Positions 515-10,592 of a stretch of 10,898 bases of DNA are shown here, one piece after another (position 1 is the first letter of the stretch; every line of letters begins with the position of its first letter). The position numbers were made by a program, and so were the translations under genes. The DNA is from Calditrichota bacterium (GTDB lineage Bacteria > Calditrichota > Calditrichia > RBG-13-44-9 > J042): assembly GCA_013150955.1 (NCBI GenBank), contig JAADJD010000016.1:1-10898 (forward strand). Reading direction: 5' to 3'. The notes beneath the pieces were generated by a model, which saw only the letters and a program-made list of their open reading frames with translations, was not told where the DNA came from and did not search any database.

Positions 515-1843
515 CTATTTCTCTGAAACGCTGATCCCATATTCACGGATAATTTTCTGCAGCATCTGACGGGATAACCCAATGGCTTTCGATGCCCGGG
601 TAATGTTTCCATCGTGCTGAACCAGGGCTTTCCGGATATAATTCACCATGAAGCGACGTCGTGCTTCGTCGTAAGGTTCCAGCTCCTCCCCATCCAGCTT
701 ACGCTTTAACATAAAATCCGAAGCATGAATCAAACGCCCGTCGCTGGCAACAACTGCCTGTTCAATCGCGTTTTTCAATTCTCGTACGTTGCCTGGCCAG
801 TGGTAATTTTTTAATACCAGAAGCGCATCTTTACTGAATTCTTTCTTCCCAATGCCGTTGCGTTTACAACTATCTTCCAGAAAATGATGGCATAAGGGCA
901 AAATGTCGTCCGGGCGTTCACGCAGGGGCGGCACATGAAACGGATACACCGCCAATCGATAGTACAGATCTTCCCGAAACTGCTTATTCTCCACCAGTTT
1001 TTCCAGATTACTGCGGGTCGCGCTAATGATCCGCACATCGATGGGGATCGATTTATTGCTGCCCAACCGCTCCACGACCAGATCCTGGGTAATCCGCAGG
1101 AGCTTTGCCTGCGCGGAAAGCGAAAGCTCTTCCACCTCATCCAGGAACAGCGTGCCCCCATTGGCAGCCTCGAATTTGCCAATCCGGCGAAAGCGGGCAT
1201 CGGTAAACGCCCCGGCTTCATGCCCGAAAAATTCGCTTTCAAACAATGTATCCGGGATCGCCGCACAATTGACGGCTACAAAAGGCCCGTTCTTCCGGGC
1301 ACTGTGAGCATGGATGTAACGAGCAAATTCTTCTTTTCCCACCCCACTTTCGCCAGTGATTAAAATGAAACAATTTGCTTGTGCCAGTTTCCGCGCCTCT
1401 TTTAATTTCTTTTTACTCAGGGGATCAAACACCAGAAGCTGATCATTTCCATTCCGACGGCCGTGATTTTCTACCTGACGTTGTGCCAACAGATTCTCAA
1501 TGGCGGTCTTCAAGATGTCCAGATCTTCCGATTTGATAAAAAAGTCATCCGCACCCAGTTCCAGCGCTTCCCGAAAAATCAGGTGGGAATCCCAATTGGT
1601 CACAATAATGATCGGAAGCTCGGGATACCGTGCTTTGATGTCCGGCAGTGCCTGTAACCCTTCCTTTTCTGAGTTCAATCGAATGTCCAGCAATAAAACA
1701 TCCGGCTGGAATTCGTCCATCTGTTTAAAACCATCGTCCAGGGTCAGCGCAGTGGCCACCTGATAATGCTGGCTTAGCATACTGCGATACATGCGCAAAA
1801 ACATTTCATCGTCATCGATCATCAGTAAACGGATCTTATCCAT
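515..1843 (-). CDS. sigma-54-dependent response regulator (NtrC/AtoC type)
   Basis: This 442-residue protein is a full-length NtrC-type activator, cytoplasmic, expected to be phosphorylated by the adjacent kinase and to drive open-complex formation at sigma-54 promoters using ATP. The receiver is at about 4-120 (acidic cluster D10-D12, phosphoacceptor D53 in LLLDIRL, T82, K104). The AAA+ domain is at about 135-365: Walker A GESGVGKE at 164-171, sigma-54 contact loop GAFTDA at 211-216, Walker B TLFLDE with D235-E236, the NxREDLYYRL region near 288-297, and WPGNVREL at 349-356. A Fis-type helix-turn-helix lies at about 400-436 (GNITRASKAIGLSRQMLQK). The contact loop is GAFTDA rather than the textbook GAFTGA. 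The start overlaps the sensor gene by 8 bases and has AAGGGAG 6 bases upstream. It is the last gene of the operon. Its target promoter was not identified: no -24/-12 site is visible ahead of this operon. Confidence 0.95.
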   Translation of the reverse strand: MDKIRLLMIDDDEMFLRMYRSMLSQHYQVATALTLDDGFKQMDEFQPDVLLLDIRLNSEKEGLQALPDIKARYPELPIIIVTNWDSHLIFREALELGADDFFIKSEDLDILKTAIENLLAQRQVENHGRRNGNDQLLVFDPLSKKKLKEARKLAQANCFILITGESGVGKEEFARYIHAHSARKNGPFVAVNCAAIPDTLFESEFFGHEAGAFTDARFRRIGKFEAANGGTLFLDEVEELSLSAQAKLLRITQDLVVERLGSNKSIPIDVRIISATRSNLEKLVENKQFREDLYYRLAVYPFHVPPLRERPDDILPLCHHFLEDSCKRNGIGKKEFSKDALLVLKNYHWPGNVRELKNAIEQAVVASDGRLIHASDFMLKRKLDGEELEPYDEARRRFMVNYIRKALVQHDGNITRASKAIGLSRQMLQKIIREYGISVSEK

Positions 1844-4800
1844 GAGTGACTCCCTTTAGATATATTCTAAATGTGGTTCCTTTTCCAGGGGCAGATTTCA
1901 GTAATTGAATATTGCCGCCAAATTTTTCCAGTAATTTACGCGCATGGAACAAACCCAATCCGGTTGATTTTTTTGTTGAAAAATGATCCTCAAAAATTCT
2001 GGATTGAATGTGTGGTTTAATTCCCTGTCCATAATCCGTTATGAGAATTTCCACGCCATCCCCGGCGGCCTGGACGTGAACATCCAGTTTCTTCTGGGGC
2101 TGCTCCTTCATGGCCTCCAGCGCATTCTGAAACAAATCTCCCAGCACACGGCTCAATACATCCTCAGGAATAACCACCAGCGGCAGCGTCACACCGGGTG
2201 ATCTTAAAAAGGTTACTTCCGTTAATTCGTGATATCGCCGGAGGGTTTGGGCAATGACCTGAGTAACGTCGCAGGAGACCGCCAATTCCGTTTGCTTCCG
2301 AATGACCAGTAATTCGCTTTTTAAATGCAATAATTGGGCTTTTAATTTGACCAAACGCTTCGGCGATATGTCCTTTATAAAATACAACTGCTGAAGTTGA
2401 TGTTCAATAGTTTTTAATAACCGAATGGCCTGACGGGCACTCTCCCGGGTGGTCTTCAATTTAACGGCCATTTTCAACACGGAATGAATAAAGGGCACGG
2501 TAAACATCCGGAAATAATTCACTTCTTTCAGAAACTCGCGCAAAACATCGGGATTGTCTCCATCTTTGATGTTGCTGCAGAAAAAAATCAAATGGTTAAT
2601 CTGCACCAATCCATTCCTGCTGTGATGAAACTGGCGAAACAGGTCGAACAATTCGAATTTAAATTCGCTGCCGAATTTGTAGCTGGTGTATTTTTCAATC
2701 ACATAATAGGCAATGCCGCCGGCTAACAACACGAAATAAAACGGCACCAGCCAGTTCATCTGAGGATCTAAAGTGAACAACAGGATGTCCAACAAAAGAT
2801 AAGTCGAAAATAAAATGGTGTTAAAAAACAGAACATGCATGACCGGCCAGAAGGATAAATACCGGATCAAGACATTGAACAACAGGAAAACCACCATGAA
2901 GGCCAAAAAGCGATAAATATGAATGCGCTTATTTTCCCGGAAAATCCACTCCTTGCCAGCGGTTATCAGCGTGTGCCATAATTGATTTACTCCAGTGACT
3001 TCCAGAATCTGATAGGTACGTCCGGGACGAAGATTAAAAGCGCGAACGATTCGGCCATTGGGAAAAAGCACCTCCACATTGTAGAGACGATCCTTCCGGA
3101 CACCAAAATACGCCTGCGGGTATTTGTAGGCATTGTATCCCGTGTGGCTTCGCAGGTAACGCATTCCGGCAAATCGCTGGCCATCCCCCACGGTATCCCT
3201 TTCAAATAATCGTACCGTACATCCCAGCCCATCGCGATTGTTTTGAGCACCACCCTGGACTTGAATAATCAGGTAGGCCGGATCTTCCATTGTGTTGATG
3301 TACATCCGATCGGAACCGATCAAGTAATTGGCCATGGCCACATCCAGATCCCCGTCCCGATCCAGATCGATCACTGCCGTGGCGGTGGTGTAAGACAATT
3401 CATTATTAATGAAGGTTGTGGAATCAATCTGAAAACGTTCACCGTTGAGATTCCAGAAAATGTAGTTTTTCCCCAGCGTTCCCAGCACCAGATCCAGATC
3501 CCCATCCGCATCCAGATCACCCCAATCTCCTCCGTATGCCATAAAGCGGTAATGCACTCCTTTTTCCCGGGACACGTCCCGGAATCGAAAATTGCCCTCA
3601 TTTTCGAACAATTTCAAACGGCGGTTTCGATTGGCCAGCAGGATGTCCAGATCGCCGTCGTTATCAAAATCAGCAAAGGAAACCGACTGGGTAAAGAAGA
3701 AGGGATTTCGGGTCAGCTGAGGAGATCGTTGACTGCGTTCCTCAAAAATGGGCAGTCGATTGGAATCCAGTCCCACATTTTCAAAATAACGAATCGGCCC
3801 ATAGATGCTGTAGAGCACCACATCCGCATCGGCATCCCCGTCCAGATCGGCAAATGCGGGAAGATAGGAGCGAAACTGGCGGGATAGCGCCATGCTTTCC
3901 GATACATCCTCGAACCGAAGGAACCCACGATTTCGAATAAAATAATTGTGCCCCAGTTCGTTTCCCAGCACCATATCCAGCAACCCATCCTGATCAAAAT
4001 CCACAAATTCAATCTGGGTAATGCGCGTGGTGATGCTTAAACCCACCTCCCGGGTGATATTGCGGAATTGATCCGATCCCACATTCTCAAAAAACTGGGT
4101 CTGACCATTCAGACTAAACAACACGGCATCCCGATCACCGTCATTATCCAGATCGGCAAATCCCAAGCCCCCATCAAAAATCCCTCGCTGGCGTTCGTAT
4201 TCCAGCAATCCGGTTTTAAAAATAATGTCATCAACCTGATAGATTTGAATCCCGCCAACTTGCCGAATATTAACGGTGTGGAATTGATTGATGCGGTCAG
4301 GGATGGACAGGTAAATCAGGGTTTTTCCTTCATCGTTTATATAAAAACTCATCCCCAGTGTTCGATTATTTCCCATTGGGAAACTTTCAAAAAACGGTTT
4401 TACGTCAGATAAAGGCCTTCCCAGATCGGACGATCCATAATAAAACATCTGGTTATTGTAAAGGATCAGGTATCCAGATGAGACGGGCATGATTTTAGCA
4501 AATTTAGGGAAATCAAACAGTTTGAGCGGTTGGCCGTCATACCCGATTTTCCAGAATGCGCCCCCCTCCCAGAAATAGAACCTCTTTTCGTCCCGATTCA
4601 AAATGAAGGGCAATTTTATGTAATCTGTTTTAATCTGAAACAACAATCGGAGGGTGTCATTCTGGAAGCGGTAAACCATTCCCTTATTGGAAACGATCAA
4701 TCCCGAATCGGGGTGCCAGATGTACCCTGTGTATGCCCTTCTGGGGATTTTTGCGATTTTTTCCCAATTCCCATGTGCATATTTAAGAACATAGGTCTCA

Positions 4801-5363
4801 TTCAGGTCAACCTGCTCACTGGAACCAATCACATACAGGGTATTGGGGGAGATCACCCATAATCTGGAATAATTCATGGCTGGCAAACTGGGTAAAATCC
4901 GGGTGGAATCTCCATTAAAATAAATAAAACTCCCCCAGATGCCCACCGCATAAAAACGGAGTGAATCCACAAAATCCACTGTTGTAATTTTGTAGGGTTG
5001 TTTGGCTGCAATAGAGCGCCAGCGGTTCCCATCATAAAAAAGTATGCCGGAATGATAATAATATTCGGTTGGGGAATAGGTGATGACAAATCGGGAAGCA
5101 TCGTACGGGAAAATTTCTCGAACTTCCACGGCTTCCTTTAAGGGAACGTTCACCCGCTTCCACCCCGCTCCCGTCCAGCGATAAAAATCCTTATCGCTTT
5201 GCAAAAAGATGGTAGACGGGTTTCGATAAATCACTCGGTGAATGGATACCGTATCCAGTTCCGGAAAGTAGCGTAAATCATTCAAATGAATGGCCCGACC
5301 GGGGGGCACGCCCCAGAATCCCAAAACAAAAATAACCATGCTGAACACGAAAGCCCTGACCAT
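1836..5363 (-). CDS. membrane sensor histidine kinase with large exported VCBS/FG-GAP and ASPIC-like sensor region
   Basis: This 1175-residue protein is a probable transmembrane sensor kinase for the following response regulator. Residues 1-24 look like a signal peptide (hydrophobic stretch, then PPGRA). Residues ~25-390 are rich in short Tyr/Trp/Gly strands and look propeller-like. About 395-690 contain six calcium-type loops of the form DxDxDGxxD, the first at D404 (DLDNDGDRD) and the last at D666 (DLDRDGDLD). About 695-790 resemble an ASPIC/UnbV domain (NRDGLG at 709-714, GRTYQILE ending at 788). Membrane helices lie at about 819-833, 839-863 and 871-889; three helices after an exported N-terminus put the C-terminus in the cytoplasm. 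The kinase core has an N-box at N1080 (FQNALEAM), G1 box DYGQGI at 1110-1115, and G2 box TGLGLFHA with G1135 and G1137. There is no standard HisKA H-box; the likely phosphoacceptor is H913 or H914 in QFHHSRN. The start abuts the upstream stop (TAAATG) and has GAGGGAG 6 bases away. The ligand is unknown. Confidence 0.9.
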   Translation of the reverse strand: MVRAFVFSMVIFVLGFWGVPPGRAIHLNDLRYFPELDTVSIHRVIYRNPSTIFLQSDKDFYRWTGAGWKRVNVPLKEAVEVREIFPYDASRFVITYSPTEYYYHSGILFYDGNRWRSIAAKQPYKITTVDFVDSLRFYAVGIWGSFIYFNGDSTRILPSLPAMNYSRLWVISPNTLYVIGSSEQVDLNETYVLKYAHGNWEKIAKIPRRAYTGYIWHPDSGLIVSNKGMVYRFQNDTLRLLFQIKTDYIKLPFILNRDEKRFYFWEGGAFWKIGYDGQPLKLFDFPKFAKIMPVSSGYLILYNNQMFYYGSSDLGRPLSDVKPFFESFPMGNNRTLGMSFYINDEGKTLIYLSIPDRINQFHTVNIRQVGGIQIYQVDDIIFKTGLLEYERQRGIFDGGLGFADLDNDGDRDAVLFSLNGQTQFFENVGSDQFRNITREVGLSITTRITQIEFVDFDQDGLLDMVLGNELGHNYFIRNRGFLRFEDVSESMALSRQFRSYLPAFADLDGDADADVVLYSIYGPIRYFENVGLDSNRLPIFEERSQRSPQLTRNPFFFTQSVSFADFDNDGDLDILLANRNRRLKLFENEGNFRFRDVSREKGVHYRFMAYGGDWGDLDADGDLDLVLGTLGKNYIFWNLNGERFQIDSTTFINNELSYTTATAVIDLDRDGDLDVAMANYLIGSDRMYINTMEDPAYLIIQVQGGAQNNRDGLGCTVRLFERDTVGDGQRFAGMRYLRSHTGYNAYKYPQAYFGVRKDRLYNVEVLFPNGRIVRAFNLRPGRTYQILEVTGVNQLWHTLITAGKEWIFRENKRIHIYRFLAFMVVFLLFNVLIRYLSFWPVMHVLFFNTILFSTYLLLDILLFTLDPQMNWLVPFYFVLLAGGIAYYVIEKYTSYKFGSEFKFELFDLFRQFHHSRNGLVQINHLIFFCSNIKDGDNPDVLREFLKEVNYFRMFTVPFIHSVLKMAVKLKTTRESARQAIRLLKTIEHQLQQLYFIKDISPKRLVKLKAQLLHLKSELLVIRKQTELAVSCDVTQVIAQTLRRYHELTEVTFLRSPGVTLPLVVIPEDVLSRVLGDLFQNALEAMKEQPQKKLDVHVQAAGDGVEILITDYGQGIKPHIQSRIFEDHFSTKKSTGLGLFHARKLLEKFGGNIQLLKSAPGKGTTFRIYLKGVTHG
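1850..1856 (-). promoter_or_regulatory. Shine-Dalgarno site for the response regulator gene
   Basis: On the minus strand AAGGGAG lies inside the 3' end of the kinase gene, 6 bases before the ATG at 1843. It fixes the 442-residue start and, with the 8-base overlap, points to translational coupling with the kinase. Confidence 0.75.
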
Positions 5364-8300
5364 TTACGGCTCCCTCACTACCGATATCTGTGGGCTTTTG
5401 AGCCGATCACCGGCATCAAAGCGGGTTAGCCAGAAATAATTCCCCCAGAAGGCTGGCGATATTCCCTTGCGAATATAATCCATCTGCACATCCTGAATGG
5501 CCGCTCCGATGTCCCCGTCTTTTAACCGCGCATAAAAACGGGCGTTAAAATCCGCCGCAAACGGATCCGGCAACACCAGTGGTGAAACCAGCACATTTTC
5601 AGCGCCCTTTTGTAAAAACTGCACTGCAAAATTGGATTGCAATGCCATAGTCCCCCTACCCGCTGCGGCGGGCATCTCAATTTGACGGCACACGCTCAGG
5701 TTTACCAGAAAGGCATTCACCGTCAACGGTTCCAGTTCATACAGATACACATAGCCGTCATTCATGGCGTCCGATCGAAATTTTAAGTAAGAGAAGATGG
5801 GCTGATAGGCACTGAACTGACCATGAGTGGCCAGGTGAATCACCCGCGCCGCTGCCAGTTGCCGTTTGAAACGGGATTCCGTGGCCGCCTCCCGCACGTA
5901 AACCGCCACCTCATTCTGAAAATGACGCGCTGCCTGCTGGACTTCTTTTCCTGAATGGGGCATTTCCTCCGGGAAGGGCGCCATCCCCAAAAAATCAACC
6001 ATTTTTGCCGGCAGCTTCCGTTCTTTTGAAATTACAGGCACGCTGTATCGGATTTCATAAATCTCTGTTAAATACTGCCTCCCGTCGTAAGCCATATTCC
6101 AGGGAAGAAAAGCCAGTCCATCTTCCAGCGCAATCTCAATTTCCTGCACCTGCCGGGATCGCAACCATTGATCCACCGGGGCGATGAACGCCTGATAAAA
6201 TTCCTGTAGGTGATGGGTCTTCAGCCGATGTGAATTCTCTTGTAGATCATTCTCCATCAGAGCCTTCCAGAAAGCCACCCGCTGGTAAATCCGGGAAGCC
6301 GGTGTTGCAATCAGGATGGCAACGGTCTCTTCCGCTGTTTGAACCAGGTAAAGCAGGGTATCCGGGAAAATCAGGGGCACAACCATCGCCTGTGCCGGCG
6401 CAAATTGTGGAAGAAAATCCCCGGCCTTTTGCGGTGAAAACGCCTTTTCGGAACGGGCAAGAAGCTGGATATAGGCCCATTTTTCTTCCAGTTGCTTTTT
6501 AATGAACTGCAGGCGGCGGTTGACTACCGAGCGTCCCCGAACCGAGAGATTCTCATTCTGCAATAATTGCTGCAGAGCCCCAAGCTGTCGATTCAACATC
6601 CAGATGGATTGCCACACCTCGTCTGGCGGAGCCTCTGGACGAACCGTCGCGGTGTAGAAAACCGAAGCGTACTTCAAATAAGCACGAATGGCATCTTCAA
6701 GTTTTCCCTGTCGGTACCAGAAATAAACATATTTCTTATAAAATGTGCGCATTTGCTGGAATAGTTCATCGGGAGACGGGGTGATGGTGGCATAAGAAGC
6801 ATAGGCAGCAGTGAGTGCCAACCCGGACTGGAAAATGGACGTTAATTCAGACCAACGCTCTTGCTTCAGGTACAGATCGCTCAGAAAATTGTACACTTCA
6901 AATAGCAGCAATGGGGCTCCCTGCGCCTCAGCCTGTTTCCGCGCCTGCTGCCCATACTTTTCTGCACGGGGCCAGTCCTTTTCCTGAAGAGCCAGTTCTC
7001 CCAGCAGGATCAAAGCCTTTAACCGATATTGTGGTAAGGCATCTTCCTCCAATTCATTCAGAAGCCGGTTCAAATATATCCGGGCCGTGTCCGGTTGCTG
7101 TTGAGCAATGGCCAGCCGTCCTTTTAATATCCAGAAATTCACTATTCCCGGGAAAAAACGAATCCGCTGCACCATTCGTTGATACCGGGTTAAGTAAGTC
7201 TGAGCCTTTGAATATTGTTCGATCTTCTCATACAGCACAATCAATTGATAAAGGGTTTGAATGTGATCCAGGTGGTTGTCGGTAAACGCACTCATTTCCA
7301 GCGATTGCTGGCATAGCGCTTCGGCCTGGGCGTATAATCCCATCTTCTCATAAATCATGGCAATTTGTCCCAGTGTGCTGCTTTTTAATTGCACGTATTG
7401 AATATGATCCTGGAGCTCCAGCGAACGGTTCAGGAAATGCAGCGCCTCGTTCCACAAGCCCATGCGCCAGTAGACTTTACCCAGTCCAAAATAGTCGTAA
7501 CACATGCCGATGGAATCCTGATTGGACTTATCCAGATCCAGGGTTTTCTGTAAATACTCGATGGTTAACTGAAATTTACCCTGGTTAAAGTAAACCATGC
7601 TCAAATTCCAGAAAGCTTTGGCCAGGTTCACTGAATTCCGGTTTTCCCGGGACAGCCGGATGGCTTTCTGGAACTCCGCAATGGCATTGTCATAATCCCC
7701 AATATCCTGGGAGAGGTTGCCCAGATTGATCCACAACATGGCCTGCGCTTCCCGGTCGTGGGTTTTCTGAGCCAGTTGCAGCGCCTGCTGATAATACGCC
7801 CGTGAGGCTTCGAATTCCCCTTCTTCCTTTAACAAGATTCCCAGATTGTTCAGGATGTTGATCTCCAGCTCCGCATATCCCCTGCCCTTCAAATCGTTCC
7901 AGACCTGCAGATAGGCTTCTTTTACGTGAGCTAATTTCCCGGCGTCTTCTCTTGCCAGTACCAGATTGTACCGCGCTTTGAAGGTTAAATATTCAGCAGG
8001 AGTGGTTCGTAGAAGGTCATACGCCGCCTCATAATAATATTCTGCAGAGTCCAGCATACCGCGGTTGTAGCAGGTATTTCCTTTCCCAATCAACCGTTCG
8101 GCCTGCAGGATCTGTTGAAGCAATTCCATCTTTGATTTTACGGCGGGGTGAAGCCTCTCTGGAATCTGACGGTAACACCCCCATGCTTTTCGCCATTCCT
8201 TTTGCGCCATCCAGAAATCGCCGAGCCCTATCTGCGCGGAAGGCCCTTCCCGCAGCAAACGATCCGTCAGAATGCGAAACTGGGCACGATCCAGCAGCTG

Positions 8301-8501
8301 CTGTTGTGCCGTGATGTACTGAAAATACCAGCGCGGATCCCGTTGCTCAGATGGGATTCGCTCGAGCCATTCCACAAGGGCAGCATAATTTCCGGTCTTC
8401 CAGTAGTAGAATTGCTGAAGCGGCACCCGGTACACATATACTCCACTACCGGCAATCAGCAGTAGCAGAATAAGGATTGGGCCAAAGACCCGTTTTTTCA
8501 T
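5364..8501 (-). CDS. membrane-anchored TPR-CHAT protein (caspase-like peptidase candidate)
   Basis: This 1045-residue protein has a CHAT (HetF-type caspase-like) peptidase domain at about 695-1035. H893 in HLATHG and C938 in NLSVCRQ are the expected His-Cys catalytic pair, 45 residues apart. Other family landmarks are ALEDGLAFLPWNMAYDG (791-807), a stretch like the usual AF..AGA..V..SLW region (QFLQKGAENVLVSPLVL, 961-977) and FWGNYFWL near 1018-1025. Tetratricopeptide repeats fill about 140-610 (for example NLGNLSQDIGDYDNAIAEFQKA at 259-280, split here as NLGNLSQDIGDY and DNAIAEFQKA). Residues 2-4 (KKR) precede one hydrophobic helix at 8-24, so by the positive-inside rule the TPR-CHAT body should lie outside the cytoplasm; this is inference. 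The usual SACETG around the Cys is SVCRQIE here. It is the first gene of the operon. Its start lacks a good Shine-Dalgarno and has only G-rich sequence upstream (GGGGGTGTGGGTGA). The substrate is unknown; TPRs probably bind a partner or regulator. Confidence 0.92.
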   Translation of the reverse strand: MKKRVFGPILILLLLIAGSGVYVYRVPLQQFYYWKTGNYAALVEWLERIPSEQRDPRWYFQYITAQQQLLDRAQFRILTDRLLREGPSAQIGLGDFWMAQKEWRKAWGCYRQIPERLHPAVKSKMELLQQILQAERLIGKGNTCYNRGMLDSAEYYYEAAYDLLRTTPAEYLTFKARYNLVLAREDAGKLAHVKEAYLQVWNDLKGRGYAELEINILNNLGILLKEEGEFEASRAYYQQALQLAQKTHDREAQAMLWINLGNLSQDIGDYDNAIAEFQKAIRLSRENRNSVNLAKAFWNLSMVYFNQGKFQLTIEYLQKTLDLDKSNQDSIGMCYDYFGLGKVYWRMGLWNEALHFLNRSLELQDHIQYVQLKSSTLGQIAMIYEKMGLYAQAEALCQQSLEMSAFTDNHLDHIQTLYQLIVLYEKIEQYSKAQTYLTRYQRMVQRIRFFPGIVNFWILKGRLAIAQQQPDTARIYLNRLLNELEEDALPQYRLKALILLGELALQEKDWPRAEKYGQQARKQAEAQGAPLLLFEVYNFLSDLYLKQERWSELTSIFQSGLALTAAYASYATITPSPDELFQQMRTFYKKYVYFWYRQGKLEDAIRAYLKYASVFYTATVRPEAPPDEVWQSIWMLNRQLGALQQLLQNENLSVRGRSVVNRRLQFIKKQLEEKWAYIQLLARSEKAFSPQKAGDFLPQFAPAQAMVVPLIFPDTLLYLVQTAEETVAILIATPASRIYQRVAFWKALMENDLQENSHRLKTHHLQEFYQAFIAPVDQWLRSRQVQEIEIALEDGLAFLPWNMAYDGRQYLTEIYEIRYSVPVISKERKLPAKMVDFLGMAPFPEEMPHSGKEVQQAARHFQNEVAVYVREAATESRFKRQLAAARVIHLATHGQFSAYQPIFSYLKFRSDAMNDGYVYLYELEPLTVNAFLVNLSVCRQIEMPAAAGRGTMALQSNFAVQFLQKGAENVLVSPLVLPDPFAADFNARFYARLKDGDIGAAIQDVQMDYIRKGISPAFWGNYFWLTRFDAGDRLKSPQISVVREP
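5370..5376 (-). promoter_or_regulatory. Shine-Dalgarno site for the sensor kinase gene
   Basis: On the minus strand GAGGGAG sits in the last codons of the CHAT gene, 6 bases before the ATG at 5363. Stop and start abut as TAAATG, a usual sign of coupled translation, so kinase and CHAT protein are likely made in linked amounts. Confidence 0.75.
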
Positions 8502-9139: not shown

Positions 9140-9174
9140 TATTCAAAATTTTGTTAAGATTCAAATCATTTTTT

Positions 9175-9999
9175 ATGAGTGATTTATTCTCCAACGAGGG
9201 CACGATTCTCCATTGCTTATCCTTACTGGCACGTCCGGTATATCACTGGCGGCGCTGGTTTCCGGGGATGTCCCGTCAACAGAAGCAGCGCTGTGTTCAG
9301 TTGCGTCAGCGAATTCGGAAGGCCTTCCAGGATTACAGCAGGCACGTCCTGACTCCCCCGCGCACCGAAGTCTGTCTGGATGATTATGCCATCAGCAATT
9401 ATGTTCATGGTACGGCGGAGCCGGAAGCCGTGAAATCAATGGAGCAACACCTGGAAACCTGCGATTGGTGTCTGCTCCGCACCTGGGCCATTCAAAAAAG
9501 GAATGTGCGCTTGTATCATCAGATCACTCATGCGGGGAGCGATCTGGAGTCCCCCATCTGGGCCAGTGAGGTTCCGGGAGCAGGAAAGTTTGTTAAAGGA
9601 GTGGTAGGCTTCCTGTTGATTGTGGCGATATTTTTCCTGTTGTTTTTTATTCAGAAGTACAAAGCGCAACGGGGCATTACAGAGAGTGGGCAACCAATTT
9701 TCAGGGAAGAGCCGCCGGCTTCTCTGGAAATTCCGGCGGCCGTCTGGGAGAAACGGGAAGCCTATCTGCACTTCAAATGGCAACCGGTGCCGGAAGCGCA
9801 GTTTTATCGCATCACCATCTGGGATGCGGAAACGGGGAAGGTGATCGTTGAAAAGCAGTTGCGGGAGTCCCGGCTGGCGGTGCAGGTGACTCCTCATTTT
9901 TCACCCGATGGGCAATATGTATGGAAGGTGGAGGCCATCGCCTATCAGCGGGTGCTTCGGAGTTATCCTTCCATGAGTTTTACGCTGGGTGAGAATTAA
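9175..9999 (+). CDS. single-pass membrane protein with anti-sigma-type zinc motif and FN3-like C-terminus
   Basis: This 274-residue protein has three parts. Residues ~60-115 resemble the zinc-binding anti-sigma domain (zf-HC2/ZAS type): C67, then HLETCDWC with H92, C96 and C99, in a helical context (DDYAISNYVHGTAEPEAVKS). One membrane helix lies at about 140-159 (VKGVVGFLLIVAIFFLLFF). The C-terminal part, about 185-272, looks like a fibronectin type III or similar beta-sandwich (LHFKWQPVPEAQFYRITIWD, then QYVWKVEAI). The expected topology is zinc domain in the cytoplasm and sandwich outside, as in anti-sigma factors. No sigma factor gene is adjacent, so that function is inference; it could also be a general zinc-finger membrane adaptor. 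ATG at 9175 is chosen; an in-frame TTG at 9151 would add 8 residues. Neither has a clear Shine-Dalgarno. It is transcribed divergently from the CHAT operon. Confidence 0.8.
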   Translation: MSDLFSNEGTILHCLSLLARPVYHWRRWFPGMSRQQKQRCVQLRQRIRKAFQDYSRHVLTPPRTEVCLDDYAISNYVHGTAEPEAVKSMEQHLETCDWCLLRTWAIQKRNVRLYHQITHAGSDLESPIWASEVPGAGKFVKGVVGFLLIVAIFFLLFFIQKYKAQRGITESGQPIFREEPPASLEIPAAVWEKREAYLHFKWQPVPEAQFYRITIWDAETGKVIVEKQLRESRLAVQVTPHFSPDGQYVWKVEAIAYQRVLRSYPSMSFTLGEN

Positions 10000-10102
10000 G
10001 GGATACAGTTGTGGGTGATCCATGCATCTTCGGGATATGTTCCAGGGATTTGGGTTACCCGAAGGACACCGACATAATATCCAAACGCAGCGGGATAAAG
10101 TT

Positions 10103-10214
10103 GGATTTCGGATTTCGGATTGCGGATGTCGAATTTCAGATTGCGGATTTGGGGAGTTGAATTTCGGATGTCGGATTTCGAATGTTGGATTTGGGATTGC
10201 GAATTGCGGATTTG
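10103..10214. repeat. degenerate heptamer array, 16 units in one phase
   Basis: Sixteen consecutive 7-base units, all in register over 112 bases, follow the pattern GGATTTC/GGATTGC with variants such as GGATGTC, GAATTTC, GGATTTG and one outlier (GGGAGTT at 10152). It begins 103 bases after the stop of the zinc-motif gene and has no sign of being coding. Heptanucleotide arrays of this sort are known from cyanobacteria (STRR elements); whether these are related is unknown. Confidence 0.85.
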
Positions 10215-10435: not shown

Positions 10436-10592
10436 GCCCCTACAGGGCGTGGGGATTGGTGAACCGTTGTTTATCCTCCCCCGGGGCGCTGCCCCGGGCT
10501 GTCCTATGGTGCCCCTACGGGGCGGGAAGGGATTCGAATTTCGAATTGCGGATTTCGGATGGCGGATTTGGGAGCCGCCTGTTTATTATTAT
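10436..10592 (+). repeat. composite repeat unit 1 (hairpins plus heptamers)
   Basis: In order: a short hairpin GCCCCTACAGGGC (10436-10448), the two-hairpin module (CCCGGGGC-GCT-GCCCCGGG at 10480-10498, a 12-base spacer, GCCCCTACGGGGC at 10511-10523), then six heptamers in phase (10529-10570) and CCTGTTTAT. The same order recurs 156-157 bases later. No coding potential is apparent. Confidence 0.7.

Follow-up and report, generated by a model that had tools for sequence, protein, structure and literature searches.

Analysis of the window, which is the whole stretch of DNA analysed here (the complete contig G000:C2, 10,898 bases, of a 4.07 Mb genome), showed an operon of three minus-strand ORFs that read in the order TPR-CHAT protein, sensor histidine kinase (HK), and response regulator (RR), in which the CHAT gene appears to have been added recently and locally to an older, phylum-level sensor/regulator pair. 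The TPR-CHAT protein (positions 5364 to 8501, minus strand, 1045 amino acids) was characterised with Pfam, hydropathy, and alignment with G001 and other CHATs, the sensor kinase (positions 1836 to 5363, minus strand, 1175 amino acids) with Pfam, an alignment of 10 homologues, hydropathy, and a PDB match, and the NtrC-type sigma-54 response regulator (positions 515 to 1843, minus strand, 442 amino acids) with Pfam, NCBIfam, and an alignment of 10.

The CHAT and kinase genes were joined at TAAATG and the kinase and regulator genes overlapped by 8 bases, just as the earlier note had described for these three genes. The contig stopped 514 bases past the regulator, with the downstream region lying outside the visible sequence. 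The CHAT-HK-RR order and the tight spacing recurred in G001, the only other genome of the genus, where identity to the window was 44%, 57%, and 77% for the CHAT protein, the kinase, and the regulator, respectively; zero-gap and 31-base junctions were maintained in G000 and G001 despite the 44-57% identity. This recurrence of order and spacing indicates that the predicted three-gene operon exceeds chance at the genus level. The tight junctions in both genomes suggest co-expression, and we infer that CHAT, HK, and RR are co-transcribed. A scan of 881 bases that took in the operon start and the sequence before it revealed no sigma-54 site. Degenerate tandem repeats of 7/14/21/28 bases were also seen at window positions 10100-10213 and 10538-10569, in the apparently non-coding right contig end.

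The distribution of the genes was determined in 40 genomes of the phylum, and the CHAT orthologue was searched for in 385 genomes. Full-length relatives of the sensor were found at nine loci in eight genomes, and G033, G030, and G007 added three further sensor-regulator pairs of greater divergence, which gave a total of 12 loci in 11 of the 40 genomes, with the regulator adjoining the kinase at each. The CHAT orthologue was present in only two of the 385 genomes (G000 and G001, same genus), directly before the kinase in both, and the pair stood without it at the 10 other loci. At G008, G027, G018, G034, and G033, the neighbour preceding the kinase was visible and was not CHAT; the visible upstream sequence at G031:C70 and G020 was only 600-960 bases, and the contig ended at, near, or inside the kinase gene at G031:C91, G030, and G007. 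The genomes carrying the ten other pair loci, including the five with short upstream sequence, yielded no CHAT orthologue at any position. Since CHAT occurred in two genomes and the pair at 12 loci, the pair appears to be the older of the two, with CHAT added only in this genus, and since the pair was retained without CHAT elsewhere, CHAT would not be needed for its core function. A conserved CHAT-sensor-regulator system was rejected, as just two of the 12 pairs, both in one genus, were accompanied by CHAT; the gene-neighbourhood comparison that the earlier note proposed found the pair largely without CHAT in relatives, an outcome which that note had named as counting against its reading. A scan of the genome contigs with the sensor as query produced weak domain-level matches only.

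The sensor began with a signal segment, followed by a region (amino acids 26-390) without a confident family or known fold, FG-GAP repeats at about amino acids 400-700, and an ASPIC-like region at about amino acids 701-790. Three hydrophobic segments (amino acids 819-889), H914, and a HATPase domain (amino acids 1068-1170) came next, and the Pfam scores were 113.5 bits for FG-GAP_3 and 71.4 bits for HATPase_c. The FG-GAP repeats matched cartilage acidic protein 1 (PDB 9etn, E 8.8e-20). The ASPIC label given earlier to this protein was sub-threshold in the window sensor alone (14.2 vs 23.4 bits) but was borne out at the family level, where 7 of 10 sensor family members matched UnbV_ASPIC with E values no higher than 0.1 and as low as 1.4e-8. 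In the alignment of 10 homologues, N1080, D1110/G1112/G1114, and G1135/G1137 were conserved, in agreement with the N, G1, and G2 boxes noted previously, to which the invariant H914 is added here. None of the HisKA models matched the kinase H-box, and H914 is the likely phosphoacceptor on its invariance. By its motifs (His, N, G1, and G2 boxes), the predicted sensor is an orthodox membrane histidine kinase.

The regulator matched Sigma54_activat (220 bits) and Response_reg (70 bits) in Pfam, while its Fis-type helix-turn-helix scored 20.9 bits for HTH_8, slightly below the cut-off of 22. D53 and Walker A (G164-E171, GESGVGKE) were conserved in the alignment of 10, which upheld the previous description of an intact D53 and intact Walker motifs. 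The loop was a GAFTDA variant in the window and GAFTGA in G001. With its receiver Asp, Walker A, loop, and HTH, the third protein is a predicted sigma-54 response regulator, and the two-component core as a whole is well supported by sequence motifs and co-conservation. A sigma-54 gene was found in 37 of the 40 phylum genomes, including the source genome (G000:C29).

G027, G018, and G034 had sigma-54-like sites with three or fewer mismatches downstream of the regulator, and two of these three sites preceded genes for CsgG/LpoB-TPR lipoproteins. Autoregulation or local targets of sigma-54 were considered and rejected, as about 1.6 sites are expected by chance in the 10.9 kb scanned and none lay upstream of the window operon. 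The CsgG/LpoB-like lipoprotein with C-terminal TPRs was located just downstream of the pair in three genomes (L063 9372-10358, L066 14252-15283, and L067 14771-15757), and a weak -24/-12-like site stood between the pair and the lipoprotein gene in two of the three. This lipoprotein was rejected as a universal partner; it adjoined the pair in only these three genomes and was also found without the pair.

The TPR-CHAT protein contained a membrane anchor (amino acids 5-23), a TPR array at about amino acids 200-560, and a CHAT domain (amino acids 765-1022). The CHAT match (PF12770) scored 116.8 bits against a cut-off of 24 and covered profile positions 4-284 of 289. The His/Cys pair that had been reported as intact (H893/C938) was present in the window CHAT and retained in G001, and conservation between the two genomes was highest in the CHAT region (50% vs 32-46% elsewhere). 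After the Cys, this CHAT domain had lost conserved positions (SPL or SPF in place of SLW), and the window and G001 CHATs stood together on one long branch whose position the CHAT tree did not resolve. The protein is thus assigned to the CHAT caspase-like family by sequence, with its peptidase function a prediction, and given the long branch and the conserved positions lost after the Cys, the domain may be non-catalytic. No significant sequence match was found between the CHAT region and solved chains, and single-sequence structure prediction of the protein gave a mean pLDDT of 45.7, with the CHAT part below 50, values too low for a usable model. Hydropathy showed N-terminal anchor segments on the CHAT protein in both genomes of the genus; taken together with the exported portion of the sensor, this makes it plausible that CHAT and the ectodomain share one side of the membrane.

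CHAT domains were found in 22 of the 40 phylum genomes, and most of the phylum TPR-CHATs at the loci read had an export-type N-terminal segment and the His/Cys motif. Among 77 proteins encoded 5' of CHAT genes, eight matched Sigma70_r2 and four matched zf-HC2, and a sigma-factor gene was near about a fifth of the TPR-CHAT loci. In two genomes of the same order as the source, the gene order was sigma-like gene, zf-HC2 membrane protein, and TPR-CHAT (G011) and zf-HC2 membrane protein and TPR-CHAT (G005). The window also contained a divergent ORF (positions 9151 to 9999, plus strand) for a zf-HC2-like single-span membrane protein, which was sub-threshold for zf-HC2 in Pfam (19.1 vs 22.2 bits) and matched the zf-HC2 neighbours in G011 (E 2e-6) and G005 (E 6e-6). 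A genome search at E 0.001 found no match to this ORF elsewhere in the phylum, G001 included, and its protein is probably outside the operon. Descent of the window CHAT from a zf-HC2 cassette is possible; this origin was not adopted, as the tree placing the window and G001 CHATs on their long branch did not resolve it.

In G005, a TPR-CHAT (L089 3436-6756) had the second motif His replaced (HFATT for HLATH) with the Cys kept; this CHAT without the motif His is probably non-catalytic, and such CHATs probably exist in the phylum. L110 4402-6496 (G031:C247) carried a sigma factor, a zf-HC2-like TPR protein, and a CHAT gene that is truncated and contains an in-frame stop, which together look like a decayed cassette. 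Near the second G031 pair, a WD40 protein (L064 9148-12000) was seen by eye to have a C-terminal end resembling the start of a caspase (peptidase C14) domain, the end being cut by the fetched stretch.

Comparison with known systems placed the pair closest to sigma-54 systems of the AtoSC/ZraSR type, with a membrane kinase whose HATPase was most like AtoS/ZraS and a regulator whose receiver-AAA+-HTH arrangement was most like PEP-CTERM/AtoC regulators in NCBIfam, both scoring well under the NCBIfam equivalog cut-offs. The window differed from these systems in its very large exported FG-GAP/ASPIC ectodomain, its H-box without a HisKA match, and the extra upstream CHAT. The ectodomain repeats were shared with CRTAC1-type FG-GAP/UnbV_ASPIC proteins, whereas the window sensor joined such an ectodomain to membrane segments and a histidine kinase.

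Most of what is known of TPR-CHAT proteins comes from defence and development. Csx29 of Craspase/CASP (type III-E CRISPR) resembled the window CHAT in having TPRs followed by CHAT, a His/Cys pair, and transcription regulators alongside (PMC10028731), but the window CHAT had a membrane anchor and is probably extracytoplasmic. The window ORFs and the Pfam, PADLOC, and NCBIfam matches included no Cas7-11, Csx30, CRISPR genes, or sigma partners, and the window locus is not a Craspase locus. HetF of cyanobacteria also combined CHAT, TPR, and one membrane segment; in the portions of PMC8406250 drawn on here, it is described as a putative protease required for development, with roles in division and heterocyst formation, its domain order is reversed (CHAT in amino acids 1-555), and no sensor kinase partner is mentioned. 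A defence island was rejected, the PADLOC match being a generic TPR model for CHAT only, and the RtcR-type PADLOC matches of the regulator were set aside as reflecting the shared AAA+ domain. No gasdermin gene was recognised in the window, as covered by general Pfam and PADLOC searches, or in the G001 locus, with part of the small ORFs included.

The reading that we tentatively prefer, with somewhat less than even confidence, is that an older FG-GAP/ASPIC kinase and sigma-54 pair gained an upstream TPR-CHAT as an extracytoplasmic accessory of the sensor, acting as a protease or a TPR scaffold. By its topology, the anchored TPR-CHAT would lie outside the cytoplasmic membrane beside the propeller-rich ectodomain of the sensor, where it would bind a protein or ligand state by its TPRs and, as a caspase-like protease or a scaffold, would alter what the ectodomain reports. 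H914 of the kinase would then phosphorylate D53 of the regulator, leading to sigma-54 transcription of envelope or exported genes. His-to-Asp phosphorylation followed by sigma-54 transcription is established for these kinase and regulator families; contact between CHAT and the sensor, cleavage, and the direction of the signal are the parts of the model that we infer. Conserved adjacency in two genomes only is weak evidence of functional coupling. The accessory role is most likely, a shared transcript comes next, and cleavage of the sensor or a partner is less likely.

CHAT may instead be an output or a bystander: a protein of the envelope that has only its promoter in common with the pair and does not touch the sensor. 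This account is rather unlikely, although the pair is complete without CHAT at most of its loci, CHAT proteins are found in many other settings across the phylum, and the window-type CHAT is confined to one genus; the junctions kept in G000 and G001 through marked divergence argue against it, as does the compartment that the exported parts of CHAT and sensor probably share. A site-specific protease that cuts the exported part of the sensor or of a partner, and so switches the relay, would be analogous to Csx29, a TPR-CHAT protease that needs H615/C658 and cuts Csx30, a sigma-factor inhibitor, freeing the sigma factor (PMC10028731). That precedent makes the idea reasonable, and H893/C938 in both genomes and the sigma-factor genes near phylum TPR-CHATs are in its favour, but with no cleavage site or substrate identified, divergent active-site surroundings, and the loss of His in the G005 relative, which points to probably non-catalytic CHATs in the phylum, it is considered improbable. 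In the bolder form, the anchored TPR-CHAT protein would cut the kinase's propeller ectodomain as a protease, or gate it through a change in conformation, and proteolysis outside the cytoplasmic membrane would drive the sigma-54 relay; this is slightly more doubtful still. The smallest chance was given to CHAT being a displaced member of a sigma/zf-HC2/TPR-CHAT cassette, rearranged to stand before the sensor operon, with the 9151-9999 protein as its partner. The zf-HC2 and TPR-CHAT order in G011 and G005 and the resemblance of both zf proteins to this ORF speak for such a displacement, while the zf ORF was not found in G001, the CHAT tree did not group the window CHAT with the G005/G011 CHATs, and the window had no sigma gene.

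Full-text searches of the open-access literature turned up neither CHAT genes described within a two-component operon nor the sensor family formed by a kinase with a CRTAC1-like ectodomain and an NtrC-type regulator; the earlier note likewise knew of no described system with this gene set. CHAT-TPR genes have been reported near genes for receiver-domain proteins in Candidatus Maribeggiatoa and T. ingrica (PMC5108060). The proposal of that note that CHAT is wired into a two-component relay was retained as to the operon, the motifs, and a plausible shared extracytoplasmic location, but not as a conserved system. The locus appears to represent a recent local addition to sensing machinery of a known type, not a conserved system that is itself new. 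The kinase with a CRTAC1-like ectodomain and its NtrC-type regulator represent a sensor family found across the phylum. If the CHAT protein is coupled to it, a genus-specific anchored TPR-CHAT in a two-component relay would show rewiring to different transcription switches, namely sigma-factor cassettes and sigma-54 relays.
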